This document shows positions 256-62,037 of a DNA stretch of 64,000 nucleotides, piece by piece. The stretch spans positions 23,185,983-23,249,982 of the forward strand of contig CM044966.1 of the NCBI GenBank assembly GCA_024516035.1, written 5' to 3'. Source of the stretch: Bactericera cockerelli. Lineage: Eukaryota; Arthropoda; Insecta; Hemiptera; Triozidae. The stretch's first letter is position 1. Each line of letters starts with the position of its first letter. The notes under the pieces were generated by a model that was given only the letters and a program-made list of their open reading frames with translations, was not told the DNA's origin and ran no database searches. Made by a program: the position numbers and the translations under genes.

Positions 256-312
256 TTTATAATTATTATTATTATTATTTACAAATCATATTATTTATTT
301 CATAATTAAAAA

Positions 313-4200: not shown

Positions 4201-4213
4201 ATTAGAGAATCAC

Positions 4214-5355
4214 CGTGTTTCCTAGAGAGCAGCACGAGCCGGTACACGTTGGAGCTACTCTGCGGCTGGTGTCGGTAGCACTTCTTTATAATTATTATTA
4301 TTATTATTAGAGCCTCACCGTGTTTCCTAGAGAGCAGCACGAGCCGGTACACGTTGGAGCTACTCTGCGGCTGGTGTCGGTAGCACTTCTTTATTATTAT
4401 TATTATTACTTTTTTATCCACAGTGTAATGTACTTAACTTTTTTTATTTACTTACTTATTTCCTCTTATTTTAAGTTTTAATTTTGCTTTGTTTTAACTG
4501 ACTTTGTATACAAGCCATATGGTTTAAAATGTACAATAAAATGAATTTATTATTATTATATTTTTTTTTTCTTTTTTTTTTTAATTTTATTATTATTACA
4601 TATTTATTATTAGAGCCTCACCGTGTTTCCTAGAGAGCAGCACGAGCCGGTACACGTTGGAGCTACTCTGCGGCTGGTGTCGGTAGCACTTCTTTATTAT
4701 TATTATTATTATTATTAGAGCCTCACCGTGTTTCCTCGAGAGCAGCACGAGCCGGTACACGTTGGAGCTACTCTGCGGCTGGTGTCGGTAGCACTTCTTT
4801 ATTATTATTATTATTATTAGTAGAGCCTCACCGTTTTTCCTTTTCCTTTTAGTTTTAAGTGACTTTGTATACATGCCATATGGTGTAAAATCTACAATAA
4901 AATGAATTTATTATTATTATTTTTTTTTTTTTTAGACCGACCTCAGTAGCTTGATCGATAAGGCAGCGGACTTGTAACCTAGAGGTCGGTGGTTCAAGTC
5001 CAGGTTTCAGCGTGGATTTAGTAAAGCGAGTTTGAGTAGTTGTGATATCACGAAAGTGATTTACACAAATATGATAACTTATTTTTTTTAGTTTTTTTTT
5101 ATTTATTTTTTTTATTTTTTTTTATTATTATTATTATTTTTTTTATATTATTATTATATATTTATTATTATTATTAGAGCCTCACCGTGTTTCCTCGAGA
5201 GCAGCACGAGCCGGTACACGTTGGAGCTACTCTGCGGCTGGTGTCGGTAGCACTTCTTTATTATTATTATTATTAGAGCCTCACCGTGTTTCCTAGAGAG
5301 CAGCACGAGCCGGTACACGTTGGAGCTACTCTGCGGCTGGTGTCGGTAGCACTTC
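4214..5355 (-). repeat. Array of six truncated exon 15 copies
   Basis: Copies at 4214-4284, 4319-4389, 4622-4692, 4727-4797, 5186-5256 and 5285-5355, each 71 bp, each ending in the exon 15 donor and joined to (ATT)n at the same exon position; the junction shows a short AAG match. Copies differ at the third base of one Ser codon (TCT/TCG). A short fragment lies at about 4823-4838. Between them, 4480-4580 and 4850-4925 hold two LINE-like 3' tails (motif TGACTTTGTATACA, AATAAA, then ATT repeats). Confidence 0.88.
4936..5083 (+). repeat. tRNA-derived SINE, family B
   Basis: Forward copy: GACCTCAGTAGCTTGATCGA, GTCGGTGGTTCAAGTCC, then TGTGATATCACGAAAGTGAT tail. Lies between truncated exon 15 copies. 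Confidence 0.78.
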
Positions 5356-5389
5356 TTTATTATTATTATTATTATTATTAGAGCCTCAC

Positions 5390-5555
5390 CGTGTTTCCTA
5401 GAGAGCAGCACGAGCCGGTACACGTTGGAGCTACTCTGCGGCTGGTGTCGGTAGCACTTCATGATCTCGGTGAACGTTTTCTCGTAGGTGGGAGAGTTGG
5501 CAACCTTGCAGATGATGTACACGGCTGACATGACCAGCTGATCCACGTGTCGGTC
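5390..5555 (-). CDS. Rbf: Pocket protein exon 15 (pocket B)
   Basis: Acceptor GTTCTCCCTAG, donor GTGAGG. Encodes DRHVDQLVMSAVYIICKVAN and then a segment ending CYRHQPQSSSNVYRLVLLSRKH, matching p130 DRHLDQLLMCAIYVMAKV and RCYRTQPQARSQVYRSVLI. This is the last recognisable exon; the next must lie left of the window. Confidence 0.93.
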
Positions 5556-8500
5556 CTAGGGAGAACATAAACACAATGCTTCCTCGTGAATAGTTCTAGG
5601 GAGAACATAAACACAATGCTTCCTCGTGAATAGTTCTAGGGAGAACATAAACACAATGCTTCCTCGTGAATAGTTCTAGGGAGAACATAAACACAATGCT
5701 TCCTCGTGAATAGTTCTAGGGAGAACATAAACACAATGCTTCCTCGTGAATAGTTCTAGGGAGAACATAAACACAATGCTTCCTCGTGAATAGTTCTAGG
5801 GAGAACATAAACACAATGCTTCCTCATGAATAGTTCTAGGGAGAACATAAACACAATGCTTCCTCGTGAATAGTTCTAGGGAGAACATAAACACAATGCT
5901 TCCTCGTGAATAGTTCTAGGGAGAACATAAACACAATGCTTCCTCGTGAATAGTTCTAGGGAGAACATAAACACAATGCTTCCTCATGAATAGTTCTAGG
6001 GAGAACATAAACACAATGCTTCCTCATGAATAGTTCTAGGGAGAACATAAACACAATGCTTCCTCGTGAATAGTTCTAGGGAGAACATAAACACAATGCT
6101 TCCTCGTGAATAGTTCTAGGGAGAACATAAACACAATGCTTCCTCGTGAATAGTTCTAGGGAGAACATAAACACAATGCTTCCTCATGAATAGTTCTAGG
6201 GAGAACATAAACACAATGCTTCCTCATGAATGGTTCTAGGGAGAACATAAACACAATAATAATAATAAACCTTGCAGATGATGTACACCGCGGACATGAC
6301 CAGCTGATCTACGTGCCGGTCCTAGGGAGAATATATTATTATTATTATTATGGTATGCTTTATTAGGAGGACAGAGTACAATGGTAACAGTATAAAATTA
6401 AAAAAAAAAAAACAAACAAAATGACAAAATAAATAAGTAAAAAAGAAAATAACATAATGTCCTACCTAATACTTCCTGAACACAATACTCCCTCATGAAT
6501 GGTCCTAGGGAGAATATATTATTATTATTATAGTATGCTTTATTAGGAGGACAGAGTACAATGGTAACAGTATAAAATTAAGTGACAAAATAAAATAAGT
6601 AAAAAAAAAATAACAACAATGTCCTATCTAATACTTCCTGAACACAATACTTCCTCATGAATGGTCCTAGGGAGAACATAACACACAATATTTCTTCGTG
6701 AACACAATACTTCCTCGTGATTTTTTTTATATACTATTAAATACTGAATACAAAATCTATTGTATCTCCAAAAATTCTCAACCGATTCTCTTCAAATTTG
6801 TTTCAGGTGGTCGAAACGCGTATTTTCTATTTTTTAAATTCTACAAAAAAAATCTGTTATGGCAGGTATAAGACCTTTTTTTTGCACTTTTTTGTAAAAA
6901 AAGGTAGCTACAACTTACCTTCATGATGTGAAGCTAGCTACAACTTACCTTCATGATGTGCTCCCCGTCATTGTCAATCCCATGAGTGATGGAGTACTCG
7001 AAACAGGTCCAGATCTTGTGAAGCTAGCTACAACTTACCTTCATGATGTGAAGCTAGCTACAACTTACCTTCATGATGTGAAGCTAGCTACAACTTACCT
7101 TCATGATGTGAAGCTAGCTACAACTTACCTTCATGATGTGAAGCTAGCTACAACTTACCTTCATGATGTGCTCCCCGTCATTGTCAATCCCATGAGTGAT
7201 GGAGTACTCGAAACAGGTCCAGATCTTGTGAAGCTAGCTACAACTTACCTTCATGATGTGAAGCTAGCTACAACTTACCTTCATGATGTGAAGCTAGCTA
7301 CAACTTACCTTCATGATGTGCTCCCCGTCATTGTCAATCCCATGAGTGATGGAGTACTCGAAGCAGGTCCAGATCTTGTGAAGCTAGCTACAACTTACCT
7401 TCATGATGTGAAGCTAGCTACAACTTACCTTCATGATGTGAAGCTAGCTACAACTTACCTTCATGATGTGTTCCCCGTCATTGTCAATCCCATGTGAAGC
7501 TAGCTACAACTTACCTTCATGATGTGCTCCCCGTCATTGTCAATCCCATGTGAAGCTAGCTACAACTTACCTTCATGATGTGCTCCCCGTCATTGTCAAT
7601 CCCATGTGAAGCTAGCTACAACTTACCTTCATGATGTGCTCCCCGTCATTGTCAATCCCATGTGAAGCTAGCTACAACTTACCTTCATGATGTGCTCCCC
7701 GTCATTGTCAATCCCATGTGAAGCTAGCTACAACTTACCTTCATGATGTGCTCCCCGTCATTGTCAATCCCATGTGAAGCTAGCTACAACTTACCTTCAT
7801 GATGTGCTCCCCGTCATTGTCAATCCCATGTGAAGCTAGCTACAACTTACCTTCATGATGTGCTCCCCGTCATTGTCAATCCCATGTGAAGCTAGCTACA
7901 ACTTACCTTCATGATGTGCTCCCCGTCATTGTCAATCCCATGTGAAGCTAGCTACAACTTACCTTCATGATGTGCTCCCCGTCATTGTCAATCCCATGTG
8001 AAGCTAGCTACAACTTACCTTCATGATGTGCTCCCCGTCATTGTCAATCCCATGTGAAGCTAGCTACAACTTACCGTCATGATGTGCTCTCCTCCGTCAT
8101 TGTCACTCCCATGTGAAGCTAGCTACAACTTACCTTCATGATGTGAAGCTAGCTACAACTTACCTTCATGATGTGCTCTCTGTCATTGTCACTCCCATGT
8201 GAAGCTAGCTACAACTTATGGGGTTCGGTGGAAGAGAAAGCCACAGGCTTTAACCTCGCCCCTTGGTTCACTACATATTCTATTTTTTTTTAATTTTTTT
8301 TTTTTAGCATGTCCTATTTTGTTGAATGTATGTAGTTGACCAATAAAGAATTAAATAATAATAATAATAACTTACCTTCATGATGTGCTCCCCGTCATTG
8401 TCACTCCCATGTGAAGCTAGCTACAACTTACCTTCATGATGTGAAGCTAGCTACAACTTACCTTCATGATGTGAAGCTAGCTACAACTTACCTTCATGAT

Positions 8501-11500
8501 GTGAAGCTAGCTACAACTTACCTTCATGATGTGAAGCTAGCTACAACTTACCTTCATGATGTGAAGCTAGCTACAACTTACCTTCATGATGTGAAGCTAG
8601 CTACAACTTACCTTCATGATGTGCTCCCCGTCATTGTCAATCCCATGAGTGATGGAGTACTCGAAACAGGTCCAGATCTTGTGAAGCTAGCTACAACTTA
8701 CCTTCATGATGTGAAGCTAGCTACAACTTACCTTCATGATGTGAAGCTAGCTACAACTTACCTTCATGATGTGAAGCTAGCTACAACTTACCTTCATGAT
8801 GTGCTCCCCGTCATTGTCAATCCCATGAGTGATGGAGTACTCGAAACAGGTCCAGATCTTGTGAAGCTAGCTACAACTTACCTTCATGATGTGAAGCTAG
8901 CTACAACTTACCTTCATGATGTGAAGCTAGCTACAACTTACCTTCATGATGTGCTCTCCGTCATTGTCAATCCCATGAGTGATGGAGTACTCGAAGCAGG
9001 TCCAGATCTTGTGCTTCAACTCTTCGTCATCTATGTGCAGCTGAGAGCAGAGCTCCTCCATACGGACGAACGCGAGGTGGTAGAACTGAGGACAGACAGA
9101 GGTGGGGGGAATTCAGGGCTCGATTGTTTTTTTCAAAATAGATTTTTTCCCCAAAAATAATAGTGAAAATATCTCTCATGGGCGACAAGTGAAACAAATC
9201 TTACTTCCCATTTAGGTGCTGGGTCAACACGAGCGCTCCGGTAGGTATCTCTTCCAATGCCAGGGATTTTGTCACGTCATTTTATTATGACTTTGCGTTG
9301 TTACGTAACTAATAATAATACTCTTTAGTGGAAGGTAACCACCAGGCGAGGTTAATGCTCAAAACATTTTCTACCACCTAACCCTCAGAGTCTTATTATT
9401 ATGTGGTCACAAACTCAAATTTATGAGGAAAAATTCGTGCACTGGGTGGGATTCGAACCAACGGATCCCTACGCTACCTGGACTACCAGACTAGCGCGTT
9501 AACCACTTGACTACCACTTGACAGAATAGATTTTTTCCCCCAAAAATATTAGGGAATTTTTTTTGAAAATATGTCTCATGGGCGAGAAGTGACACAAATC
9601 CTACTTCCCATTTAGGTGCTGGGTCAACACGAGAGCTCCGGTAGGTATCTCTTCAAAGGAGTGTGACCAGATGGGATTTCAGGAAATTCACTACTGAAAT
9701 CTCATCTGCTCCAGCGCATTTCCTTGGCAGTACCAAGAGGCAACGCTGGATGCATTCTTGGGACTTTTCCAGCAAGAAATCCTCCACAAATTACTGATGA
9801 TTAACCTGATAACCTGATATATCGATAATTTAAATATTGTTGAAAAATTCTTAATAAAAAATGTCCATCTTTAATTCCGACGTTGTTCAATATCATGGTT
9901 GAGTTTGGTTGGTTTTGGCACATTTTATACGGCTGGATGCCCTTCCTAACGCCAACGATTCTATTTGATTTAACGTCCAGGATTAGGACGGGGGTTTTAC
10001 CCTCCATTCGCTGGGAATCGTATACCAGCTACCCACATTTACCTCACCCAGCCTGGGTAGGGCCGGAAATGCCAGCCTCACATGTACGGAGGGAACAGAA
10101 TTTTCCGTGTGAAAAATCTGCTCCGACCGGGGATCGAACTTAGGATCTCTGGACTACGGGTAGTAGTCACAACCGTTATGCCACGGAGGCTGGTACTAGT
10201 TCTTTTTTTTATTTCTACTGTCAACACTTTAATCAGAACCAAAATTCCGATTAAAGCAATGCCAGATTGTCATAACAAGTGGTCAGGGTACGTCTTCTCT
10301 CCTTCCTCGATCTACCACCTTTGATCCACTTCTAAAGGCGTAAGTACTTGGTACAAGTACTCAAGGTAAGATCCTTTTAAATTTAATACTCTTCAATCCT
10401 TTTAATACACCTTTCGTAGTAGCCTTATTGAACCAGCGGCCTTTTCTCGTTAAAACCCAGTAACTGGGAAACTTAGGTCTTTCGGCTTCAAAGCCCCAGT
10501 TACTACATTAATTCATAGTTAATGGTTACCCTACTTTTTATCCTGTTTCATAAAAAAAATACTGTAGAAAACAACACCTCTCACCTTCCTGAAGAACAGG
10601 CCGAGACTTCCCTTCCTCTGAGGCACATCCTTCTCCCCCTCCCTCGCCTCCTCCTCCTCAGTGCTGGAGGTGATGGGGTGGAGGGGGGGGACTATCACCC
10701 GCGCGGGACCACCCTGCACGACTGGAACACACAGGGAGAGAGAGACAGGGAATTTGAATGAATGAATATTCATTGTAATTATACAAGTTGTACGTTTAGA
10801 AGTTACGAAATACAAAACAATATTATAAAATATAAAATAAAATAAATTTAAGATAAAGAAAAAGAAGAAAAACTTAAAAATAAAAATTGAATAGAATCTT
10901 AGCTTGATTTTTTTGTTGGTTTAACGTCGCTCTTATGCTCTGTCCCGCTAGCTCAGTGGTAAAGGCGAGGCACTCTGTAAATCCAGAGGCTCCGGAGGTC
11001 GCGGGTTCGAAACCCAGCCGGGACATGACAAGTTATCCTCCGACTTGGAAATTTTAACACATAATCATACGTCTTGGGCTTACTGCTGGAATAATGGGAC
11101 TTGATAGTCCTAATCGGGCAGTAGAAATAAGGCGATATTATTAACATTATTAACTGCATGGTCATATCACGACGGGGGTTTTACCCTCCATTCGCTGGAA
11201 ACTCATAAAGCAGGTACTCAAATTAACCTCACCCAGCCTGAGTCGGGCCGGGACTAGCCAGCATGACGATGGTTCGAATTTGAATGGTCACTCATCCAAG
11301 TCCGAGCCTTGCTGGGCGTTGCTTAACTTCAGTGACTGAATGAGAACTGATGTATTCAACGTACCATCGACGCTGGCTTGCTGGATTTTACTTTCGATAA
11401 ATTTTTAATATTAGAAATCGGAAGTATTGTGTTCGTTTTATCTTTTCCTTCAGTACCCGGGGCGATAAGACGCTACTGATCGCTACTTGGACGCTACATC

Positions 11501-14500
11501 GACGCTACTGGTCGCTACATCGACGCTACTGGTCGCTACATCGACGCTACTGGTCGCTGCATTGACGCTACTGGTCGCTACATTGACGCTACTGGTCGCT
11601 ACATTGACGCTACTGGTCGCTACATTGACGCTACTGATCGCTACATCGACGCTACTGGTCGCTACTGGTCGCTACATTGACGCTACTGGTCGCTACATTG
11701 ACGCTACTGGTCGCTACATTGACGCTACTTGGACGCTACTGGTCGCTACTCAGACACTTACCTCGTAGCACGGAGCTGGTATCTCGCCGGGTGACCGGAG
11801 ACTGGAATCTATCTGATACCGGGGTCACTCCTCCAGTGCCCGGGCCAGTGGTCGCTACATCGACGCTACTGGTCGCTACTCAGACACTTACCTCGTAGCA
11901 CGGAGCTGGTATCTCGCCTGGTGACCGGAGACTGGAATCTATCTGATACCGGGGTCACTCCTCCCGTGCTTGGGCCAGTGGTCGCTACATTGACGCTACT
12001 GGTCGCTACTTGGTCGCTACTCAGACACTTACCTCGTAGCACGGAGCTGGTATCTCGCCTGGTGACCGGAGACTGGAATCTATCTGATACCGGGGTCACT
12101 CCTCCAGTGCCCGGGCCAGTGGTCTCTACATGGACGCTACTGGTCGCTACTTGGACGCTACTGGTCGCTACTCAGACACTTACCTCGTAGCACGGAGCTG
12201 GTATCTCGCCTGGTGACCGGAGACTGGAATCTATCTGATACCGGGGTCACTCCTCCCGTGCCCGGGCCAGTGGTCGCTACATTGACGCTACTGGTCGCTA
12301 CTTGGTCGCTACTCAGACACTTACCTCGTAGCACGGAGCTGGTATCTCGCCTGGTGACCGGAGACTGGAATCTATCTGATACCGGGGTCACTCCTCCCGT
12401 GCCTGGGCCAGTGGTCGCTACATTGACGCTACTGGGCGCTACATTGACGCTACTGGTCGCTACTTGGACGCTACTCAGACACTTACCTCGTAGCACGGAG
12501 CTGGTATTTCGCCTGGTGACCGGAGACTGGAATCTATCTGATACCGGGGTCACTCCTCCAGTGCCCGGGCCAGTGGTCGCTACATTGACGCTACTGGTCG
12601 CTACTTGGACGCTACTCAGACACTTACCTCGTAGCACGGAGCTGGTATCTCGCCTGGTGACTGGAGACTGGAATCTATCTGATACCGGGGTCACTCCTCC
12701 AGTGCCCGGGCCAGTGGTCGCTACATTGACGCTACTGGTCGCTACTCAGACACTTACCTCGTAGCACGGAGCTGGTATCTCGCCTGGTGACCGGAGACTG
12801 GAATCTATCTGATACCGGGGTCACTCCTCCCGTGCCCGGGCCAGTGGTCGCTACATGGACGCTACTGGTCGCTACTTGGGCGCTGCGGAGCTGAGACGGA
12901 AGGGTTACCTGCGAGGAACATACGATTTAAAATTATGATTTTTTTATTATATAATAAGACATATGTACAGTACAAAATATGATTATAAAAAAATTAAAAA
13001 AGGAAAAATAGATAAATATATACTTACACAGCTACACACATACGTCCTAACGAAAGAGCGGGGGTTTTTTTTGTTGTTGATTGTTTCGTATATAAAATAA
13101 ATTTTAATAATAATTTTTTTTATGTATTTTGATAATTAAAGGTAGATGGACAATGGACATGCCCATCACCCGATAACATTTAAAACTACGTGGTCCCATA
13201 CTCAAATTATTTTTATTTGAAACATATTCACAACTTAAATTTGTAGTTTTATTTATATTTTTTTTTTACAAGGAAATCATACATACATGGATAAGGAAAA
13301 AATAAAATAAAAAATACAAGCATTGAGTGGGAGATAGACTCACGTGTTCACAGACCGGGATCTCCTGGCCAGAGTTCTCTATGCTTCTCCACAGGGGAGA
13401 GGCGGAGGCCCAAGCCAGAGAGTCCAGCACCTGTTCCTCGCTCAGGTTGAGATGGTTGACTATGTCCCGAGACAGGGACTGTTCCGCCCGGACTATAACC
13501 TGGGGAGATAAATAGAGAGAAGAGTCAGAGATAAATAGAGAGAAGAGTCAAAGATAAATAGAGAGAAGAGATAAATAGAGAGAAGAGGCAGAGATAAATA
13601 GAGTCCAGCACTTGTTCCTCACTCAGGTTGAGATGGTTGACTATGTCCCGAGACAGGGACTGTTCCGCCCGACTATAACCTGGGGAGATAAATAGAGAGA
13701 AGAGTCAGAGATAAATAGAGAGAAGAGTCAAAGATAAATAGAGTCCAGCACCTGTTCCTCGCTCAGGTTGAGATGGTTGACTATGTCCCGAGACAGGGAC
13801 TGTTCCGCCCGGACTATAACCTGGGGAGATAAATAGAGAGAAGAGTCAGAGATAAATAGAGAGAAGAGTCAAAGATAAATAGAGAGAAGAGATAAATAGA
13901 GAGAAGAGGCAGAGATAAATAGAGTCCAGCACTTGTTCCTCACTCAGGTTGAGATGGTTGACTATGTCCCGAGACAGGGACTGTTCCGCCCGGACTATAA
14001 CCTGGGGAGATAAATAGAGAGAAGAGTCAGAGATAAATAGAGAGAAGAGTCAGAGATAAATAGAGTCCAGCACCTGTTCCTCACTCAGGTTGAGATGGTT
14101 GACTATGTCACGAGACAGGGACTGTTCCGCCCGGACTATAACCTGGGGAGATACATAGAGAGAAGAGTCAGAGATAAATAGAGATAAGAGGCAGAGATAA
14201 ATAGAGAGAAGAGTCAGAGATAAATAGAGAGAAGAGTCAGAGATAAATAGAGAGAAGAGTCAGAGATAAATAGAGAGAAGAGTCAGAGATAAATAGAGAG
14301 AAGAGTCAGAGATAAATAGAGAGAAGAGTCAGTGATAAATAGAGAGAAGAGGCAGAGATAAATAGAGAGAAGAGGCAGAGATAAATAGAGAGAAGAGTCA
14401 GAGATAAATAGAGTCCAGCACCTGTTCCTCACTCAGGTTGAGATGGTTGACTATGTCCCGAGACAGGGACTGTTCCGCCCGGACTATAACCTGAGGAGAT

Positions 14501-17500
14501 AAATAGAGATTAGAGTCAGAGATAAATAGAGAGAAGAGTCAGAGATAAATAGAGTCCAGCACTTGTTCCTCACTCAGGTTGAGATGGTTGACTATGTCAC
14601 GAGACAGGGACTGTTCCGCCCGGACTATAACCTGGGGAGATAAATAGAGATTAGAGTCAGAGATAAATAGAGAGAAGAGGCAGAGATAAATAGAGTCCAG
14701 CACCTGTTCCTCGCTCAGGTTGAGATGGTTGACTATGTCCCGAGACAGGGACTGTTCCGCCCGGACTATAACCTGGGGAGATAAATAGAGATTAGAGTCA
14801 GAGATAAATAGAGAGAAGAGGCAGAGATAAATAGAGTCCAGCACCTGTTCCTCGCTCAGGTTGAGATGGTTGACTATGTCCCGAGACAGGGACTGTTCCG
14901 CCCGGACTATAACCTGGGGAGATAAATAGAGAGAAGAGTCAGAGATAAATAGAGAGAAGAGTCAGAGATAAATAGAGAGAAGAGTCAGACATAAATAGGG
15001 AGAAGAGTCAGAGATAAATAGGCAGAAGAGTCAGAGATAAATAGAGAGAAGAGTCAGAGATAAATAGAGAGAAGAGTCAGAGATAAATAGAGAGAAGAGT
15101 CATAGATAAATAGAGAGAAGAGTCAGACATAAATAGGGAGAAGAGTCAGAGATAAATAGGCAGAAGAGTCAGAGATAAATAGAGATTAGAGTCAGAGATA
15201 AATAGAGAGAAGAGTCAGAGATAAATAGAGTCCAGCACCTGTTCCTCACTCAGGTTGAGATGGTTGACTATGTCACGAGACAGGGACTGTTCCGCCCGGA
15301 CTATAACCTGGGGAGATAAATAGAGATTAGAGTCAGAGATAAATAGAGAGAAGAGGCAGAGATAAATAGAGAGAAGAGTCAGAGATAAATAGAGTCCAGC
15401 ACCTGTTCCTCACTCAGGTTGAGATGGTTGACTATGTCACGAGACAGGGACTGTTCCGCCCGGACTATAACCTGGGGAGATAAATAGAGAGAAGAGTCAG
15501 AGATAAATAGAGAGAAGAGTCAGAGATAAATAGGCAGAAGAGTCAGAGATAAATAGAGAGAAGAGTCAGAGATAAATAGAGAGAAGAGTCAGAGATAAAT
15601 AGAGAGAAGAGTCATAGATAAATAGAGAGAAGAGTCAGACATAAATAGGGAGAAGAGTCAGAGATAAATAGGCAGAAGAGTCAGAGATAAATAGAGATTA
15701 GAGTCAGAGATAAATAGAGAGAAGAGTCAGAGATAAATAGAGTCCAGCACCTGTTCCTCACTCAGGTTGAGATGGTTGACTATGTCACGAGACAGGGACT
15801 GTTCCGCCCGGACTATAACCTGGGGAGATAAATAGAGAGAAGAGTCAGAGATAAATAGAGTCCAGCACCTGTTTCCTCACTCAGGTTGAGATGGTTGACT
15901 ATGTCACGAGACAGGGACTGTTCCGCCCGGACTATAACCTGGGGAGATACATAGAGAGAAGAGTCAGAGATAAATAGAGAGAAGAGTCAGAGATAAATAG
16001 AGTCCAGCACCTGTTTCCTCACTCAGGTTGAGATGGTTGACTATGTCACGAGACAGTGACTGTTCCGCCCGGACTATAACCTGGGGAGATAAAAGTTACT
16101 TAATAACTTTGGATAGGTATCTTATTTTTTCGAAATATGTACAATGTACAGACATGATTTCTTCTTTAGTATATGGACAATATGGGCATATAATGAATAC
16201 ATAATAAATTGTTACATATTGGATTTCAAACAAGTTTCAAAATAATTAACATTATTCAGAACATCATCATTTGGATGACAACCCAAAACGCTTGCAGCAT
16301 TGCCTCGTTGAACTGCAAGGCTTATCTGTTGCAGCAAAAAAAAAACAAGTTTTCTATTTCAAAGTAAAACATTTCTGCAAACTCACTACCGAGAGGAAGC
16401 GTGCCTCTAATGCTCGAGCAAGTTGAATTTAAGATTTTATTTATTTATTAAAGATGAGTGTTTCACAGCCCTTTTTATTTCGTAGCCATGAAACAGGAGC
16501 TATTGTAGAGGCTTGTGGTCTGTGTTGTAGCCTGCCCATCCCGGAGTATGCCTCCCCTCTGATGGGCGAGAAGTGACACAATACTTCTCAATCAGGTGCT
16601 GGGTCAACACGAGGGATCCCTTACAAACAATTGTAACCAAATTAAGAATACAATTTTTTGTCGGCATGGGGGATCGAACCCGGGACCTTCCGCATGGCAA
16701 GCGAGTGCTTAAGTCATGTAACTACATGACTTGGAGTCTCTAGCTCCTTAATAGGTGTTCTCACCTCAATGACTTGGTAGAATTTTGTTTTCTTCAATAA
16801 CTTTATTATATTTTATTTTAATATTCATACATATCCTTCATTTAATATTTAATAGTTACTGCAATCCAATGTACTTTTCAGTATGTGGTGGATTGCAGCA
16901 AATAATATTGTCTTCTTTTTTTTTCATGTCTTTTTTTTATGGTAGGCGTCAATGTTCAGTACGGAGACAATTCATGGAAACGTTCTGTTGGAATTGTAGC
17001 AGAAGATGACAACCTTTTTCAATACCAGACAGTGACTTAATAACACAGAGACATACATTTCCACCTGTTTGTAATAACATTAGGTGTTCTTACCACAAAG
17101 ACATACATTTTCACCTGTTTGTAATAAGATTAGGTGTGCTCACCTCAATGACTTTGTAGAAATGGTAGGCGTCAATGTTGAGTATGGAGAGAATCCATGG
17201 AAACGTTCTGTTGGAGTTGTAGCAGAAAATGACGATCTCCAGGCAGCAGGCGAACAGGGTCTCGTGAAACACCCGCAGAGATAGAAGCACCTGCAAGAGA
17301 ATAGAATAATAAAAATAAAAATAATAATAATATCGCCTTATTTATACTGCCCCGATTAGGACTATTAAGTCCCATTATCTTAGAAGCCAAATAAAAATGG
17401 CTTAGTATGGGTCCTCTGTATAAAAAAATATGAAAAAAAAAAGATTTATTATTATTATTAAGACATATTATTATATGGTAACAATTCCAAATGAGAGGAT

Positions 17501-20500
17501 ATCTTGTCATGTCCCGGCTGGGTTTCGAACCCACGACCTCTGGATTCATAGAGTGCCGCCTTTACCACTGAGCTACCGGGACAGACTGAGCTACCAAATG
17601 TGATAACTTTTGTAACATTTAACTTACGTTGAAATCATACGAGGGCTTCTTCTGTTCGTCGGTGAGAATGCTCTCGAGCAGTTTGTAGTAGAGACACACC
17701 GCCACCGAGAGGCGCTTCAACTAAAGGGCGGGGTTATTGCCTTAGGCAATCTCTTCCACCCAACCCTTAACTTAACTTACATTGTAACTGTTGTTAACTC
17801 ACATTGAAATCATACGACGGCTTCTTCTGTTCGTCGGTGAGAATAATATATGACCTAACTAAAGGGCGGGGTTATTGCCCGTGGCAATCTCTTCCACCCA
17901 ACCCTGTTAACTCACATTGAAATCATACGAGGGCTTCTTCTGCTCGTCGGTGAGAATACTCTCGAGCAGTTTGTAGTAGAGACACACCTCTCTTCCACCC
18001 AACCCTTAACTTAACTTACATTGTAACTGTTAACTAACTCACATTGAAATCATACGAGGGCTTCTTCTGTTCGTCGGTGAGAATAATATATGTCCTAACT
18101 AAAGGGCGGGGTTATTGCCTTAGGCAATCTCTTCCACCCAACCCTTAACTTAACTTACATTGTAACTGTTAACTAACTTACCGTTAAACTACCTGCAACG
18201 TCATTTATTGCTGCAGTTCGGTGACATATTACAAGTCTATCTTGTTTTATATCACTAGCTTCAGTGTAGACGTTAAAAAATAAAAAAATAACTTACATTG
18301 AAATCATACGACGGCTTCTTCTGCTCGTCGGTGAGAATGCTCTCGAGCAGCTTGTAGTAGAGACACACCGCCACCGAGAGTCTCTTCTCCGCGAAGTCTC
18401 GGGAGTGCTCGGCATTGCTCGCGTAGGCTCGGGTGAACTTCTCGCCCAGGCAGGAGAGAACCGAGTCGATGAGAGCTGTGGGGTTCGATTCGCACGACCT
18501 GGAAATTAAAAATAAGAAATCATAGGTATGTTATTACTTCCGAGAAATTTCTAATATTAGAAATCGGAAGTATTGTGTTCGTTTTTGTAAAAAAAAATAT
18601 TTTTTTCTCCGATTTCAATTTATTTCATATTTCTGGACGTTTCATAACCTCCTGAGCAAATTTGGTTTTGTGTCCGTCCGTCGGTCTTTTAAAACGATTC
18701 CTTGTAACGCGCAAATCTCGGAAACTACTCGACCGATTTTGATGAAATTTTGCACACATCTAGGAGACATTCTGTAGATGGTCCCATTTTAAATAAATTA
18801 ATCGAATTCGTACTAGCGGTTCTGGGTGAAAGAGACCATGAGCCTGACCACTAACTTTTTACTTAAACGCTTATATCTCGTGAACGGTACACCCGATTTT
18901 GATGAAATTTTGTATGTATATGCATATTATTGTTTTACGTAGGCTATTTATATTTATTTTTGAATTAATTATAATTTGACTCTGATATTTAAGAAAATCC
19001 GAAATTTTGGACAAAAAAGTAAAAAAATAAGGACCACGACTTGCCGATACAGAATTTTTTTGTGGAATCTAGAATATAGGAAAACCGATATTCAACCATA
19101 TAAAACAAATTTGAAGAAAATCGGTTCAGTCGTTTTGGAGATACAAGTAATTTTGTATAAAATCTCAAAATTGGCACGTGTTTACAATGTGAAACAATCA
19201 CGAGGAAGTATTGTGTCCATAATTGGCAGTGTTTAAAAAAAAAAAAAAAAAAATGTCAACACTTTATTAGTACAATTAAATTGTTACAAATAGAGCAAAT
19301 ACAGCCAAGTATACAAAATAATAATAATACAGTAAAATCAACAAGAGAGATATAACAGAGTAAATTAATGTCAACACTTTATCAACAATAAATTAAATTG
19401 TTAGTCTCGGGAGTGCTCGGCATTGCTCGCGTAGGCTCGGGTGAACTTCTCGCCCAGGCAGGAGAGAACCGAGTCGATGAGGGCCGTGGGGTTCGACTCA
19501 CACGACCTGGAAATTAAAAAAAAAAAAAAAAAAAAAAGGATTCATAGGTATGTTATTACTTCCGAGAAATTTCTAATATTAGAAATCGGAAGTATTGTGT
19601 TCGTTTTTTTTTTACTGTTATGGAATTCTTACTTACTTTACTTTCCGAGTCCATGTGTGACGTCATGGTGGTGGAAGGATTGATATGGGTGAACCCTGTG
19701 GACGCTCAGAACGATTGTTCTGGCAGAGAGCTACTGCTTCATAGCTACAAAATATAACATTCTAACACTCATCTTTTTTTTGAAGAATTGAAAGGATGTG
19801 TTCCCATTTATTCCAATATTAGGTAGTGTTTTTACTTTCCACTACCTCTTAAAAGGTATAGAAAGTAAAGGTATAGAAAGTATTCGATTTTTTCGAAATT
19901 GAGCTGATAACATTTCTGGACGAATTAGACTCTCCTGATTCCAAAAAAGTGATCTTGTCAATACTCACTGGAAGATACGAGTCAGAGCGGGACTGGGAGC
20001 CGGATCAGGAGATTGAGTCGGCTCACACTCTGAGTGGCGGATTGGTTATTACAATACAATATTAACTATTTTGTTCTTTTTTTTTCTCTCTTTTTTTTCT
20101 TTTTTTTATAGCTGTAAGTTTTTTTTTTGTGTAGATTTAAGTGTCTTTGTACTAATGGGGACCTCCCTCGTCAATTAATAAAATAAAATACTATTTGTCA
20201 ATACTCACTGGAAGATACGAGTCAGAGCGGGGCTGGGAGCCGGATCCCGCCCGCACAGGAGATTGAGCCGGCTCACACTCTGAGTGGCGGACTTGACCGG
20301 GGTGGAAATGCCATGCTCCAGGTCGCGAGTAGAGAGGTAGTGGCGGCCCGTGAGAGGGGTGCGGGGGGCCGTCTGTGGAACCAATCAGTGGGGGAGAGAG
20401 AGAGGGTGTTAGGAACAGTTGTTGTTTTTTTTTTTTCTTCAAAATACTCAATCATAATTTATTTACATCAAAATGATATGTACAAAAGACAATAACATAT

Positions 20501-23500
20501 TAAAAGATAATGTAAAAACTTGAAAAAAGAAAATGAGTTACTGTGATGCCTGTGACCTCTAAGTATGAGGTTGTGCTGGCATCACCGGAAAATCATATCA
20601 TAAGTGACTAATTAATTACAATAATAACAATATAATAAGATAATTGGAAAATAGTTACAATAAACTTTTTTTATATACAATATCATATAATTATACTTCC
20701 TTACATAAGATGTTTTGATAATTTCTTTTTTTTCCTTCCTCTGAAAACGTAGGTACCTAATTATCTGTTCATAGTTATTTGATCTGTGTTGATGGTATTT
20801 TTTAAATGTTACAGTGCTTTTCTACTTTCTATTACTTTTCTACTTTCTATTACCTATAAGGTATAACAAGTATTGTTTTTTTTTTTTTTTAAGCCAGCGT
20901 CAATGGCATGTTGAATACACCAGTTCTTATTCAGTCACTGAAGTTAAGCAACGTTTAGCGAGGCTAGGTAGGACTTGGATGGGTGATCATTCAAATTCGA
21001 ACTCTCGTGATGCTGGCCCCAATCAGGCTGGGTGAGGTTAATGTTGTTGTAGCCAGCTTGGCTACAGCTGGGAGAGTTGGCTTGTTCTCAAGCACATATT
21101 TCTATGTGAGGTCAACCATCATGAGAACATAAGACTTTTCATTAATAATCAAGCAAAACACTGGTTTTGCAACGCCAAGAAAAACAAAACGAGCGTGCTA
21201 TATATAATAATACATTAAACCCTATGAGAACTGCAAGCTAGTTTGGCTTGTTAGGGTTGACTAGTCTGTTCTCTGTAAATGTCCTCTAGCGAGACACTGG
21301 TCTTCTCGCTGTTTAACTACAAGCTAGCCTGGCTTGCAATGGATGGCTAGTCAGTCCTCTGTTTATAGTCCTCTAGCGAGACACTGGTCTTCTCTCTGTT
21401 TAGTGCAAGCTAGCCTGGCTTGTCAGGGTTGGGTGGAAGAGATTGCCACAGGCAATAACCCTTTAGGTAGGACATTAGCTTTATTCTCGTTTCTTTGTTC
21501 AATCTATTTATTTTTTCTTTGTCATTTCATTGTTCTCACTTTTCTCTTTATACTGATTAAACAAGAGAGGTTAGTTGATTGCATGGATATTCAGAACTAT
21601 TACCTGCTGATGAGAGCAAATAAGCTCGAAACAGCTGTCCAGGTATTTTCTGATATTCATGTACATCTAATACAACTTCTCACTTTACTCTTTATACTGA
21701 TTGTATTTTACTGTATATAATTTGTCTTACCTTTTTTTTTTCTTTTTTTTTTAAATTAATTTGTGTTAATCACTTTCGTGATGTCACAACTACTCAAACT
21801 CGCTTTACTAAATTTTTGCTGAAACCGGGACTTGAACCACCGACCTCCAGGTTACATGTCCGTCGCCTTATCGATCAAGCTACTGAGGTCGGTGATTGGT
21901 CTTACCTAATAAAGCGTAATATAAGAACAACATACCTTGGGTCGGAAGGAGGTGAAGTCGATGCCGAAGTCCACCTCCGGGGGGGCATGTCCCCCTCCCC
22001 CTCCGGTGAGGGAGGAGGGGGTGGAGGGGAGGGGAGGGGTTCGGGGTGATCCTCCGTGGAGGAGGCGGGGTGGGTGGCGTCGAATGAGGGGAACTTGGCT
22101 GGGGAGGAGAGGGGAGAGGTAAGTTTCAATAATAATAATAATAATTCAGAAAAGTGTCATCTTGTAATCCTGCCATCTAGTCCGAAAAAATTTAAGTTCT
22201 CAGTAGATTTTTTTTTTTTTCCTTTCTCCCCAGTAAATTTTAATACTTATTGTCCAAGTTTATGTGAGAAAGTATGAATTTACTCCTCACATAAACTAAG
22301 AAAAACTGTAAATGAAAATACAAGTATCTCCTTCATAATAAAAATAATAATCTACACCCACACTAAGAAAATCAACCTGCCTCTATCACTTGTACATGAA
22401 ATGCAAAAAGCTGTCCTGCTCGAAAATATTGTCGCCTGCTCAGAAAATTCCTGTCCCACTCATAATATCAACATCTCCTTATCAACACTATAATACTTCT
22501 ATATTTGCTACTGCTAGTCCATAGAATAATCTTTATTACCATAATATCTATAAATATGAGAAATAAAACGAATAATAATAATAATAATACTCTTTAGTGG
22601 AAGGTAACCACCAGGCGAGGTTAATGCTCAAAGCATTTTCTACCACCTAACCCTCAGAGTCTTATTATTATGTGGTCACAAACTCAAATTAATGAGGAAA
22701 AATTCGTGCACTGGGTGGGATTCGAACCAACGCATCCCTACGCTACCTGATTTACAAGACTAGCGCGTTAACCACTTGACTACGTTCAAAGGGCTGTGTG
22801 GAAGAAAATGCTTTGATAATCACGCCCTTTGTCAATATTATTCTTGTCAATAAAGAGTTATTTTTGTTATTAATCTAAGTGTTCGGTGGAAGAGATCGCC
22901 ATAGGCAATAGCCTCGCCTTTTAGTTAAGACACCATAAAAAAAGATGAGTGTTTCACAGCCTTTTTTAATTCGTAGCCATGAAACAGAAGGTACTGTAGA
23001 CGCTTGTGGTCTGTGATGTAGCCTGCCCATCCCGTAGTAGGTATGCCTCTTCTCTGATGGGCGAGAAGAAGTGGTGTTGTTTATCTTTTCTTGTTTATAT
23101 TGTTCTAATTTTTTTTTTTTTTTTTACTTGTTTGTACATATGTCCTATTGACACATACACGACCGGCACCATTTTCAGTGTATGTACGCATGGGACCGCT
23201 ATATCTGAGCACGAAAAACGAAGTATACGAAAAACCCGCTTGGAGAGTAAAATTATACAGGGGTATAGAGTATATTTCTATACTAAAACATAGGAATAGA
23301 TGTCCCACCGGTGGGACAAGCAGGTTTGAAATCAAAAAGGTCACTTGACCGGCTTGACCCACCGGTGGGACAACAACCGGTCCATTGCGTACATACTCAC
23401 TTGTCCTACCGGTGGGACAACCGGTCCATTCAGTACACACGCAGTTGTCCCACCGGTGGGACAACCGGTCGTGTATGTGTTAATAAATAAAGTCAAATTT

Positions 23501-26500
23501 CTCAGCACTCAGAATGTACTACTCGTACATTTTGTTCACAAGGTACTGATACTAGTTCACATGTACTAGCTCTGGAAGCACAGAGAGGCATATACTCACG
23601 CAGGAATATTCTCTCGTCAAAGTCTCCAACACTGAGAATGTACTCCTCGTACATTTTGTTCACAATGTACTGATACTAGTTCACATGTACTAGCTCTGGA
23701 AGCACAGAGAGGCATATACTCACGCAGGAATATTCTCTCGTCAAAGTCTCCAACACTCAGAATGTACTCCTCGTACATTTTGTTCACAAGGTACTGATAT
23801 TAGTTCACATGTACTAGCTCTGGAAGCACAGAGAGGCATATACTCACGCAGGAATATTCTCTCGTCAAAGTCTCCAACACTGAGAATGTACTCCTCGTAC
23901 ATTTTGTTCACCACTTTGAAGTTGAAGTCGAAGTTTTCCTGTTCCAACAGCCTTGAGAGATCTTCATAGTTTCCTCGCAGCTTCTGAAATGAGGACAAAG
24001 AAATATACTGAGCATTAACAAACAAAGAAATATACTGAGTATTAAAAAACAAAAAAATATATTGAGTATTAACAAACAAAGAAATATACTTATCATTAAC
24101 AAACAAAGAAATATACTGAGTATTAACAAACAAAGAAATATACTGAGCATTAACAAACAAAGAAATATACTGAGTATTAACAAAATACATGTACTTTTAT
24201 TTTAAACATAATATTCTTACTAAGAATAATTTTCAGTTTACAATTTAATAAACATAAAACATTTCATCAGAAACTCCAGTTGCTCCCAAAAGTGAAGCTG
24301 CGTTTCCTCTCTGGATTGCTAAACCAATCCTCTGCATTAAGAAGAAACTTGATCTGGGATCTCCAGTTTTTGCATTACTTTACATATCATTATTGGACCT
24401 AGAACAGAGACCTATATCGAGGTTTCTCTTATAAATTATTTTATTTATTTGAACAATATATGGGCATATTTACCCTGTACTAACTAGTTTTACAATTCAT
24501 TTCCCCAACTAATCATAATAAAAACAAAATATAAACATCCAGGTTTGAATGAATTATTTACAAGCTTCATGCATCGTTAGTTCACAGTTGGCTCCAAGCA
24601 CCCACCTCTACCTTATCAACAAGCCACCTCTTCCCCACCTAGCTGGTCTCATCCACAACCCCTCAGATGGGTGCTTGGAGAGATCTCAGCGAGGTGGTAG
24701 AGGATGGTTTGGATGCAGTGGATGGTATAGCCAGGAGCTCATCAAAATTTGCGCAACGTGTTTGTAATCATTAGCTTGAGAGATTCTGACTCGGAGGTTG
24801 CGGGTTCGAATCCCGGCCGGAGCCGAAATTTCTGACCGAAATTTTCTGTTTCCGGAATGGCATGGATGTAAAGGTAAAGTGCCCTGAAGTAATACGAAAG
24901 CAGTTTCGGGGCACAATTACCTTTAAAAAAAAGCTAGAGATTTTTAACTTTCCTTCTTTTTTTTTTAGAAATGAACGGGGGAGTTGAACTAATGTTTAAA
25001 TCCTATATATTTTGCAAATCTTGCCGGCTGAACAGTTTCCCCTGTTTGACCTCGCGGATCCAGCTTTCTCATCAACACTCGACCGTGCATTTAAAAAGAT
25101 ACATTATTATTTTATGTTGATATGTTGAGGTACATTATACATCACTATACAGTCATATTTGTTTTTTTTTTTTTTATCAACTACGGAACAGATGACAGTT
25201 GAGAATTTTGATGGAGTCTTTGATAATTTGTATGGAGATGTCAGTAAGTAGATTAGTATTTAATCCATGTTTTCTGAAGAAATCACTGACAGTGTTTGGA
25301 ATGGCTCCTCTTGCTCCAAATAATAATCCATCTGTTTCAAAATTAGTTTCAGGTATTCTGTATTTTTTTGAGAGGTCTGGGATACATGGATCGTAAATTT
25401 GTTTTTTCTCAAGATGAACTGAGTTAGGTTGGTCTTCACCTTGCTCGAAGCGAACAGTTGGATTAACTATTAGTACTTTATTTTTAGTAGGATGAATTGC
25501 TATGATGTCACATCGTCTTGTAGAAGAATCAGTAGAGATGCATGATACCTCTTCAAATGTGTTCCAACCAACTCTCTTCAATTCACTTGCTATTGCAGAT
25601 CTTACTGTGTGGTGTCTTTTGTTACGCAGCAGTTCGCCATGTCTGCAGGATCCCAGCACGTGTCCAAGGGTTTCAGTCTCCTCACATCCAGTTATCCGGC
25701 AGAGGGAAGATGTGCTGCGTCCTGGAACAGCTCTAACAGCCGCAACATTACAAGACATTTTAATAGCATTTGTCCATTCACTTGAGCTCATCCCAGTTTT
25801 TGTATAAATCCATTTGTTTGTTTTATGATTGTGTTTATATAGGGTGATGCCTTTGCCTTTCTGAATTAGAGAACTCCATTGATCAAATGATTTTTCTCTC
25901 ATTTCTTCTCGAATTTGTTTTCCTGATTTTGATGGATCAGTTTGAAGTTTAGATGCAGCATTTACAATTTCATCTGAGATATCTCTTGACTTGTGTAGTA
26001 GATGGTTGTCTATATTTTCTAATTTCTTGCAAATATTTATGTTTTGTATTGGAGCCTCCCATTCAGCCTTCATGATTCCTAGGCCACGATTTTTTCGAGC
26101 AGCATAAATCATGCCTGTTGGAGTATCACTGGGGAGGTGGAGGACTTCTTTCACCGTACTTCTGACTGATTTATCAATGTCTTGAAGGAATGAATCAGGT
26201 ATCTTTGAAAGTGGAGCGCATTGTAATGGATATATAAGAGTAGGCCATACATATTGATTGATGATATTGAGTTTTTGGTCTGGTTGAAGCAATTCTGACT
26301 GGGCTAATTTATTTAATTTATATGTGAGCTTTTTTATGATTTCAGGTTTATCAATTATGATTTCGTCTTGTATAGTAGTCCCAAGATATTTAATTTTTCC
26401 AGTATCTCCTATCGAGTGGATTGATCCAGTGGAAGCATCAATAATTTCTTGATGTAATTTCCCATTTTTTATTACTATTGCTTGGCTCTTGGCTGGGTTG

Positions 26501-29500
26501 ATGGATAGCCCTATTTCACTAGCTAAATCTTCAATCAAGCTGATGATAGCTAATGCAGCAGTTGAGTTTTTACCAATAACAGCTAAATCATCAGCAAAAG
26601 CCAGCAAAGTCACTTTTTCTGTATCAAAGTCATAGCCAAAGGCTTGTTTTACACTTTCTTCATTCACTTTCTCGTATAAGCCAGTTTTCTCCTATAATAA
26701 AGAAAGTATTGTATTCCCCAAAATTTTGACCTTCCCAGTTTTTCACATTCATGGAAAAAATATTATTTTTTTTCTTCTCATTATAACTAATAATAATAAG
26801 TACCTGCTTGCTGAGTAGCTTGGACTGAGTATTCCTGAAGAAATACTAACATTGTTCCAGGAAATACTAAAGAAGAACGGGGGGGTTTTTAGCGGGTGAG
26901 CCGACAGAATTGGTGCCCTTCAAGAGGGGCGACACACCATACCCTGCCGGCAAGTCCCGCATATCCTCCAGCACTAGAGCTTTGCTGAAGGAATCTTAGA
27001 AGATTTTCCCCCTCAAAAAAAAAAAAAAGCTTGGACATGTTGTTGCGCCAGCAGTACTCCTTGATGCTCTTGTATAACTAATTGAATTGAATTGAATTGA
27101 ATTGTGTTTTATTGGATTAAAAAACAGTTATTACAACCAATTACATTGAATCACTACAATAGGTTCTTAAGAGTAAGAGAAGAATAGATATTTCAAACTA
27201 AAAATTATAATAAAATTAAAAAATTAATTAAAAATGATCTTTTTTTTAAATTAAAAAAATATTTTTTTTTTAATTAAAAAATTAAAAAAAATTAAATTAA
27301 AAAAAATAATTAAAAATAATAATAATAATAATAAGTACCTGCTTGCTGAGTAGCTTGGACATGTAGTTTCGCCAGCAGTACTCCTTGATGCTCTTCGCCT
27401 CCATGTGAAGACCATCGTGGTGCCGGCACAGGATGCCTATGGAGCAAGGGGGCTCCTCCGGGGCTACGAAGCGGGAGTCGAGGAAGTTCTGTGGCATGCC
27501 CTCGAACTCCGGGTTCACAATGTCTGGAAGCAGAGATCAATTTTTTGAAATGTTAGTTTCTGGTTTATTACAATTCATTATTCAACTCATCTCCCTGGGG
27601 CACACAGCCCACAACTGCCGCCGCATTCCCTCTTTGTATTGCCAGAATTATCATTTGTGATAGGTAGAAACCCGTTCTACCATCAATTTTATTTATTTCA
27701 TCATCGTAGGGCGGCGTCATTGTGAACGATGGTAGCCACACAGTGGAGGAATGACTCAGCACTTCTACCACTGTTTTTAATCACTTTTTTATTTTTACTT
27801 TTTAATATATAAATTTATGTACACTTTTTAATATACAAAATATTTGTAAAAAAAAACTTTGTGAAACTAACTCTTCAATAAATGCTATACTAATTTATTT
27901 TGTCTATTTTATTTATATATCTCCCTTGCCTTCATCCCATATTAGCTTATGTTGCTTTTGGGGTCGGCATTGTTCAACCTCATGGTTGAGGTTGGTAAGG
28001 TGGAGCACGTTTTTTATGCCCTTCCTAACGCCAACGATTCTACTTGGTTTTAACGTCCTGATCTGGACGGGGGTGTTACCCTCCATTCGCTGGGAATCAT
28101 AACAGCTACCCACATTAACCTCACCCAGCTTGGGTAAGGCCGGAAACGCCAGCATCACGTGTTTGGAGGGAACGGAATTTTCTTCAAAAAGTCTGCTCTA
28201 ACCGGGGATCGAACTCGGGATCTCTGGACTACGGGCAGTAGTCACAACCATTACGCCACGGAGGCTGGATTTTATTTAAAAAAAAATATTTACTTTATTT
28301 ATTCAATTTATTTCATCTCTTAATGTATTTTGTTTACTTCTTATTACCTCTCAGTTTGCTCTGGATAACATTGGCGTAGATGAGATCACAGGTGGCTATG
28401 AGCAGGTGGAAGGAGCTGACCAGGTCATTGCTTACGTCCAGGTACTCGGCTTTCGTCAGCACAAACAGGATCCACGTGAACTCAAACACCTTGGTGGGAG
28501 TGCAGTGGATCATTCTGAGGAGAAGTTTTAAAGTTACCATATTTGTGTTAATTTTTTTATTTTTTTTAAGAGGACATAGACAGCCAGACACGTACAGATT
28601 TGAGTTATATACATAGAGAAACCTCAGCAAATAAGCTGAATTGGAACCAGTTGTTCTGATATATGTATTAATTTTGATGTATGTAATATTTATGTTCCAA
28701 ATAAAGGTTTATTTTTTATTTTTTTATTTATTTTTTATTTTTTTATTTTTTTTTAATTAATTAATTGTTTAATAATATTAACAATGGATTGAGAAAATGT
28801 ATATACAAATATATGTAAATGTACAAATAATAATTTGGTACCTTAATAAAATAATTTTCTTATAAGTAGATAGTATAATATTTTATCTCCTTAGAATATA
28901 AAATAAGCTGTACCAGATTCTACAAAAGGATTTGAGTCTTTTGAAGAATATGCAAACTTTTGAGCACACAATGTGTTGAATTCTCAAATAATCTTCTTTA
29001 ACAAAAGTTATTCATCTGATTGCTAATTCATATAATAAACATCTAAACTAAAAAATATAGTAAACATCTAAACTAAAAATATCTATCTCTCCACTACTTA
29101 TTACAATTCCTGGATATTTTATTATGTCTAGGTTCTATCATTTATGACAATTATACTTTAAAATGGTACTTTTTAGGATACATTAATTTGTTACCATACA
29201 CTGATGACATAATGGGATCCAAGTATGAAATTATAAGACAAAAGTCCCAGCAAATAGTATGAAATTAGGAAATTAATCTGGATATAAAAATCTATCAGTC
29301 ATACTCACTTTGGATTAGTTCCCTATAGTATTTTATCTCCTTAGAATATAAAATAAGCTGTACCAGATTCCACAAAAGGATTTGAGTCTTTTGAAGAATA
29401 TGCAAACTTTTGAGCACACAATGTGTGCTCAAAAGTGGTAATTTTGAAGAATATGCAAAAAGGTTTATTTATTTATTTATTTACATAGAGATAACAGAGA

Positions 29501-29912
29501 GTATAGTAGAAAGGACATACGTATACCGACTTCAGAAGCTCGATCGATAAGGTGGCGTAACCGGAGGTCACGGTCGGTGGTTCGAGTCCCAAGTTCAGTG
29601 AGGATTTAGTTTAAAAAAATGTATAATTGAGTCATCACATTAATTAACATATTTTTTTTATTTAAGATGAGTGTTTCACAGCCTTTTTTATTTCGTAGCC
29701 ATGAAACAAACATGAAATTGTAATTTGGTTACAATTGTTTGTAAGGGATACCTTCCGGTGCGCTCGTGCACCTAATTGGGAAGTATTGTGTCACTTCTCG
29801 CCCATCAGAGGGGAGTCATACTACGGGATGGATAGGCTACAACACAGACCACAAGCGTCTACAGTAGCTCCTGTTTCATGGCTACGAAATAAAAACGACT
29901 GTGAAACACTCA

Positions 29913-29952
<40 letters not shown>

Positions 29953-41660: not shown

Positions 41661-41679
41661 GACACCCTTTTTATTTATT

Positions 41680-62036: not shown

Positions 62037-62037
62037 A

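Follow-up and report, generated by a model that had tools for sequence, protein, structure and literature searches.

We analysed a 64,000-nucleotide stretch of the Bactericera cockerelli genome (assembly GCA_024516035.1, contig CM044966.1, positions 23,185,983 to 23,249,982), referred to below as the window. It contains a p107/RBL1-like pocket-protein gene and an Aurora B-like kinase gene, and in both genes exons are flanked by truncated copies of their own edges. These copies, which an earlier note made from the sequence had pointed out, are the subject of this analysis. The exons of the pocket-protein gene were found by tblastn with human p107 as query and were then placed by homology, splice sites and phases. 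The Aurora B exons were located by tblastn and splice sites.

5390..33803, minus strand: p107/RBL1-like pocket-protein gene, 15 exons found (exon 1 at 33803-33651, its 5' limit arbitrary; exon 15 at 5555-5390; later exons lie beyond the window)
36690..40002, plus strand: Aurora B-like kinase gene, four exons found (36690-36928, 5' limit not determined; 37393-37547; 38019-38209; 39644-40002)

Psyllid RBL1 models match the pocket-protein gene at 68-77% identity across the whole query, and as judged from homology the gene is the p107/RBL1 orthologue of the psyllid. Its phases agree from exon to exon, except for a frame change within exon 7. At 21936-22098 in this exon, where a run of G is found, a change of frame is needed to match the psyllid orthologues; it is either a small sequence error or an unusual splice. 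For Aurora B the top three psyllid-like matches show 79-81% identity and the fourth, a Diaphorina citri model, 63%.

Truncated copies flank most exons of the p107 gene

An exon-by-exon BLAST search revealed truncated copies beside p107 exons 5, 6, 8, 9, 10, 11, 12, 14 and 15, that is 9 of the 15 exons found and exactly the nine listed in the earlier note. The last Aurora B exon, which the note had also named, carries copies on both sides, at its start and at the stop codon. The same search gave nothing for p107 exons 1-4, 7 and 13, for the three Aurora B exons found ahead of the last, for an Artemis-like frame or for three ABHD17 exons. An exon with a BTB domain has a single copy of its start, at 99.5% identity, located at the extreme end of the window. 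All 94 exon-copy matches within the window are on the same strand as their own exon and no more than 9 kb from it, with no antisense or distant copies among them; the 12-nucleotide (nt) copies of exon 14 are too short to be counted here. Within the window this does not match a dispersed transposable element, whose copies would be expected on both strands and at a distance. Whole-exon tandem duplication was likewise rejected, since the copies are truncated.

Beyond the functional sites we counted 99 copies of splice-site motifs, 64 of donor and 35 of acceptor type, in a search that tolerated 2-3 substitutions and in which GT/AG was not verified singly. Eight donor edges, four acceptor edges and one stop codon are affected. 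Most donor copies of exons 14, 12, 6, 8 and 5 and most acceptor copies of exon 11 match the motif exactly, as do few of the donor copies of exon 9 and of the acceptor copies of exon 15. The edge itself is absent from a 44-nt fragment of exon 5 and from one exon 6 copy. Identity to the exon is 86% for the exon 8 copy, 92% for the exon 10 copy and about 90-100% for the other longer copies. The individual arrays, some of them delimited with Tandem Repeats Finder (TRF), are as follows, with unit lengths in nt or base pairs (bp).

26780..27395, minus strand: donor edge of exon 5 (exon at 27523-27339) and two nearby fragments, at 27071-27028 (44 nt, not reaching the edge) and 26825-26804 (22 nt plus donor)
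23506..23911, minus strand: exon 6 donor-edge array (TRF), with two more copies of a 124-bp unit (64 nt of exon, 60 nt of intron) and a truncated one
23995..24184, minus strand: 27-bp x 7 array (TRF), intron only, starting 11 nt upstream of exon 6
19955..20291, minus strand: donor edge of exon 8 with a single diverged copy at 20041-19969 (aligning to 83 nt of exon at 86% with a gap, donor kept)
19403..19506, minus strand: exon 9 acceptor-edge copy, 104 nt of exon, 96%
17629..18498, minus strand: exon 9 (18498-18297) and four donor-edge copies (42, 73, 42 and 83 nt of exon), among which lies sequence akin to an element inside the exon 14 array
16752..17290, minus strand: exon 10 with a single, older copy of its donor edge, which 156 bp of other sequence split into 17010-16939 and 16782-16752; a 50-bp repeat (17044-17152) extends across the exon 10 donor and takes in 9 nt of exon
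13344..16093, minus strand: exon 11 (13499-13344) with 13 copies of its acceptor edge, every one holding 81 nt of exon (3 of the 13 with small indels or a one-base gap), a 23-bp intronic minisatellite between them
11469..12908, minus strand: exon 12 (12908-12758) and seven donor-edge copies of 118-127 nt exon and about 12 nt intron, with scraps of 16-31 nt of exon and a tail of 21-bp repeats
6901..9085, minus strand: exon 14 (9085-8942) with 40 copies of its donor edge, which keep 12 nt of exon (21 copies), about 36 nt (14 copies, one with an indel) or 72 nt (5 copies); the array is broken at 8219-8368 by a piece that has relatives in other parts of the window
5502..6702, minus strand: acceptor side of exon 15, a 40-bp minisatellite carrying the 3' splice site, with 20 further acceptor motifs (at most 3 substitutions); one 54-nt exon copy at 6321-6268 lies beyond this 40-bp array
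4201..5460, minus strand: donor side of exon 15, six copies of 71 nt exon, donor and (ATT)n; a seventh 71-nt copy at 255-185, past a retroelement of about 3.9 kb, and a shorter donor fragment at 4840
38334..39643, plus strand: last Aurora B exon, two truncated copies of its start (38471-38559, 89 nt, 100%; 38345-38395, 51 nt, 90%) amid a TATTC-like repeat array
39977..42078, plus strand: Aurora B stop-codon minisatellite, unit of the last coding bases and the stop, 18 further motifs (at most 3 substitutions)

The counts given in the earlier note agree with ours, namely 13 acceptor-edge copies at exon 11 and, at exon 14, 40 extra donor edges (41 motifs including the functional one). Its general picture, in which every array is a head-to-tail series of units made of exon edge, splice site and a short piece of intron, is too uniform. 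Exons 5, 8, 9 and 10 have a few separated fragments instead of arrays, and the 40-bp unit at the exon 15 acceptor includes at most 1-2 bases of exon. Adjoining the exon 6 array, TRF reports intronic 44-bp repeats at 23353-23470, with a core that looks palindromic by eye.

Local duplications are concentrated at coding edges

Local duplications were called by a self-comparison of the window that was blind to exon positions (maximum spacing of copies 3 kb, minimum length 25 bp, minimum score 40 bits). It yielded 24 loci, of which 6 were mostly dispersed repeats and were dropped. Among the 18 kept, 13 touch a coding exon. When one unit per locus is placed at random, with arrays collapsed (51,694 bp) and with unit lengths and settings chosen by hand, 1.3 loci are expected at exon edges (P = 2e-12) and 3.1 on any exon (P = 4e-7). 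The 3' half of the p107 gene, taken by itself, has 11 such duplications, 9 of which touch an exon, with 1.6 expected (P = 5e-7). Without the BTB locus the kept set gives 12 of 17 (P = 1e-11 for edges and 1e-6 for any exon). Thus, the claim that coding edges were repeatedly duplicated locally, producing fields of splice-site copies, holds for this window beyond what random placement would give. Since the window was chosen for its oddness, the P values describe the window and not the genome.

The same loci bear on a simpler explanation, that these are ordinary intronic minisatellites of a repeat-rich genome and that the ones noticed happen to include exon sequence. Five of the 18 local duplications touch no exon, one of them being the 27-bp array beside the exon 6 acceptor, which was scored as not touching the exon. 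The duplication caller missed two TRF arrays that lie within introns or between genes, at a distance from exons (23353-23470 and 43514-43637). Moreover, the 23-bp array of exon 11, the 40-bp array of exon 15 and the simple repeats at Aurora B are mostly non-coding in bulk. Of 16 TRF arrays listed by hand (period at least 20, score at least 150), 7 overlap an exon directly, 4 lie in the exon 15 and Aurora B clusters and 5 are unrelated to exons. When the exon map was rotated over the uncollapsed arrays, a procedure that favours chance overlap, P was 0.003 for loci and just 0.13 for exons touched. Against this explanation stands the excess over collapsed arrays, found with a caller that knew nothing of exons: 13 of 18 with at most 3.1 expected. 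Adding the two missed arrays and the six dropped loci gives 13 of 26, with 2.1 (P = 7e-9) or 4.6 (P = 2e-4) expected for edges or any exon; without the BTB locus it is 12 of 25 (P = 3e-8 and 4e-4). The count of 13 of 26 weakens the excess, yet it stays well above random placement. We therefore regard ordinary minisatellites as an unlikely account of the whole pattern.

Breaks lie inside exons and introns

The earlier note had proposed that duplication starts at exon/intron junctions. This does not agree with the positions of the breaks, most of which lie inside the exon and the intron: the copies retain 12-127 nt of exon, save for the exon 15 acceptor unit, and 12, 18 and 60 nt of intron for exons 12, 14 and 6, respectively. 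In the exon-bearing arrays the basic TRF periods are 21-164, and larger periods look like multiples or composites. Furthermore, one array holds a stop codon. Breaks inside exons and introns, together with an array over a stop codon, indicate that the splice sites were carried along rather than targeted. Splicing or transcription might also give rise to DNA breaks at exon/intron junctions, through R-loops or splice-site pausing, for example, and the eight donor and four acceptor edges affected would be in keeping with such a process. However, the stop codon is hit too, breaks are spread through exons with up to 127 nt retained, and no copies were found for p107 exons 1-4 or for the three Aurora B exons ahead of the last. 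Such a process appears to us doubtful.

The note had further stated that all copies within an array break at the same exon base. Exon 11 and, at exon 15, the set of seven 71-nt copies behave in this way; exons 14, 9 and 12 do not. At exon 14, the 12-, 36- and 72-nt copies all join the same intron end to CAC or CAT, and 15 of the 19 copies with at least 36 nt share one 36-nt sequence that is one base off the functional exon. The 36- and 12-nt forms look like microhomology deletions of the 72-nt form, joined at short matches, so that the 72-nt break, which is shared with a D. citri model described below, was likely the first event.

Exons 11 and 12 reveal other relations among the copies. Leaving out the three exon 11 copies with indels, 3 of the remaining 10 are equal to the functional exon over 81 nt and the rest combine three variants differently. 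Pairwise difference is 1.7% in the exon part vs 5.1% in 27 nt of the intron part, a pattern that may reflect exchange with the functional exon, although few bases are involved. In exon 12 the 12-nt intron part is invariant and the exon part differs by 2.2%, the copies sharing a few variants in different combinations. A pattern of homogenised copies with the border copy excluded fits exon 14 and does not fit exon 11.

Two coding stretches overlap with repeat units. The 21-bp unit of the exon 12 array recurs inside coding exon 12 (12758-12908), and the stretch that holds it aligns poorly with D. citri and Cacopsylla. The Aurora B C-terminus reads TVTLSGKSL, other psyllid-like sequences end in TVTL, TVTLSK or TVTLNK, and the residues SGKSL (39977-40002) are encoded within the minisatellite unit. 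The repeats may thus have slightly edited the coding sequence in exon 12 and at the Aurora B C-terminus.

Insertions within arrays and comparison with other psyllids

Several arrays are interrupted by other sequence. The piece at 8219-8368 in the exon 14 array has five relatives in the window at 77-86%, three of them located within the group of exon 9 copies. At 4832-5172, sequence with nine matches, the best 6 of 9 at 72-93%, interrupts the exon 15 array, which is also split by the stretch of about 3.9 kb that holds a reverse-transcriptase domain. No relatives were found for the sequence that breaks up the exon 10 copy or for that within the exon 9 cluster, and neither was therefore counted as evidence against an artefact.

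These interruptions bear on the possibility that the assembly turned allelic or noisy reads into false tandem copies. Assemblies of D. citri are indeed described as containing false tandem duplications and falsely duplicated exons (PMC9933525, PMC11659978). In the window itself, the exon 7 frame change means that the sequence may hold small errors, and the BTB exon start has its 99.5% duplicate at the window end. However, the copies are truncated, carry pieces of intron and have variants of their own at 86-100% identity, and the exon 14 and exon 15 arrays contain sequences with relatives in the window, in the latter case also a reverse-transcriptase element. The signature of a false tandem, near-identical whole stretches without independent insertions, was not matched as judged from the sequence. 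The array insertions and diverged copies argue against a pure assembly artefact, which we consider quite improbable.

A protein model of another psyllid also speaks for real arrays. One D. citri RBL1 model (P0124) repeats 24 residues, HKIWTCFEYSITHGLDNDGEHIMK, and the repeat begins at exactly the same residue as the 72-nt exon 14 copies in the window. Four psyllid RBL1 models were compared, and the repeat is not in the three others, two of which are from D. citri. Known from a protein model, the P0124 repeat could itself reflect an assembly or prediction error. Exact internal repeats of at least 9 residues occur in 5 of 267 proteins examined; none was seen in three Aurora B models from named psyllids nor in one further close model. 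The main text of a psyllid paper on three chromosome-level genomes has no word starting with tandem or satellite (PMC12203342). The D. citri models P0121 and P0122 are nearly identical RBL1 models from contigs of equal length, probably one and the same contig, and are possibly a recent or false gene duplication.

Retention of the copies for a function, for example as alternative splice sites, is very improbable: there are 99 extra splice-site motif copies within two genes and the exon 12 region is open in frame across several units, but translation continued beyond the exon 14 donor would run into a stop a few codons on, some units have lengths that three does not divide (e.g., 40, 56 and 124) and the sets of copies vary from exon to exon.

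Neighbouring genes and other repeats

Among named sequences, those closest to the Artemis-like frame at 59770-61056 are from psyllids: D. citri at 70%, Cacopsylla melanoneura at 67% and Cyamophila willieti at 74% over 86% of the query, with 77% for the best match overall. These values point to a psyllid other than those three species. The start of the BTB/BACK-domain exon with its upstream sequence (61972-62226) is duplicated 1.8 kb away at 63744-64000 with 99.5% identity, and the duplicate runs off the window end. It is more likely a tandem gene or haplotype duplication, or an assembly duplicate, than an edge copy. At the other end of the window an inverted pair, recognised by eye at about 730-1670, surrounds a minus-strand frame (909-1367) and is nested in the retroelement at about 295-4195. 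We take this frame to resemble a transposase; it has no Pfam match. Three frames with reverse-transcriptase domains carry no local duplications of the kind seen at the exons, but these may be young.

Discussion

Tandem repeats over exon borders are known from amphioxus as mirages, and the original Adh3 mirage paper is said to be that of Canestro and co-workers from 2002. The statement of the earlier note that no such process had been described does not hold, since amphioxus mirages are tandem repeats over exon-intron boundaries in Adh3, in the globin genes BflGb6 and BflGb9, in PGBD5 and in troponin C (PMC3087553, PMC3902484). As described there, they occur at 5' and 3' edges, have units of 10-160 bp, in many cases keep AG/GT and form homogenised clusters; splicing is apparently not disturbed by them, their length varies, and they have been put forward as a way in which introns are gained (PMC3087553, PMC3902484). 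Like these, the arrays of p107 and Aurora B span boundaries at either edge, have units of 21-164 bp and keep AG/GT in many copies. Unlike the mirages described, they are found in an insect, surround 9 of the 15 exons found of one gene and affect its neighbour as well, reach 40 copies at one edge and include one array on a stop codon. The features of the mirage class that we tested are present, apart from homogenisation with exclusion of the border copy, which fits exon 14 and not exon 11, and we therefore class the arrays with mirages, in a distant taxon and unusually dense. The exon-edge arrays are thus a known pattern, seen here in an insect, and the bias toward coding edges is the interesting part.

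Small tandem duplications are reportedly linked to patch-mediated repair in rice. Such duplications are a documented product of the fill-in of break ends by Pol alpha-primase and CST (PMC8355091). The likeness lies in the duplication of tens of bases with no need for a prior repeat; unlike here, break-end fill-in as described in that work has no exon-edge preference and no array expansion (PMC8355091). Intron gain has been ascribed to tandem duplication of coding sequence with a proto-splice site (PMC2891723, PMC3087553). There, too, short stretches of exon sequence are duplicated (PMC2891723), but the copies in the window sit in existing introns or in the 3' flank, with no new intron shown. 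Among the matches listed from open-licence literature on exon-edge repeats outside cephalochordates, no insect or psyllid case was present.

Taken together, we think it probable that the arrays are minisatellites of the mirage type, which arose as short tandem duplications holding a coding border and were then expanded. The starting duplication, of about 20-160 bp and containing the border of coding and non-coding sequence, would result from the fill-in of a staggered double-strand break or from slippage. Unequal exchange or slippage would then expand it, and internal deletions at microhomologies and the insertion of other sequence would modify the arrays. The mRNA would be made with the site adjacent to the exon, so that the copies would be mostly harmless intron. 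The slippage or re-replication proposed in the earlier note and a staggered-break fill-in followed by unequal exchange are both possible fits.

For the edge bias we offer a weakly held guess. Breaks or their repair might concentrate in exons, which are transcribed and somewhat richer in G+C, and duplications wholly within an exon might be purged by selection so that those spilling over an edge remain. Selection against intra-exon duplications can explain why internal ones are missing; it does not explain the scarcity of non-coding ones. The G+C content of exons with copies is 0.56 and of those without 0.48 (P = 0.03, 10 vs 13 exons, BTB left out). As a whole explanation, G+C content was rejected, the difference being weak and having exceptions.

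Several observations weigh against the interpretation as mirage-type arrays with a coding-edge bias, in addition to the weaker outcome of rotating the exon map. A single window was analysed, picked because it looked odd, and the copy numbers and the splice-site use are putative, being deduced from the assembly sequence. The G+C contrast falls to P = 0.10 once the BTB exon is counted as having a copy, and exons 7 (G+C 0.69) and 13 (0.65) have no copies. In addition, just one of 10 proteins from named psyllids (P0124) has an internal repeat of at least 9 residues, so the gene models show little sign of the phenomenon elsewhere.

A broader possibility, to which we give clearly less than an even chance, is that psyllids, like cephalochordates, have a mutational process favouring coding borders. 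Such a process would be strong enough to leave truncated copies around most of a gene's exons and to rewrite short coding stretches, as in exon 12 and at the Aurora B C-terminus, with the same exon 14 break persisting or recurring across psyllid genera. If this were true genome-wide, some of the "falsely duplicated exons" in psyllid annotations may be real. The sequenced psyllids would then offer many exon-edge duplications of different ages, in which one could test directly what causes the coding-edge bias, how splicing tolerates dozens of identical sites and whether the mirage model of intron gain holds.

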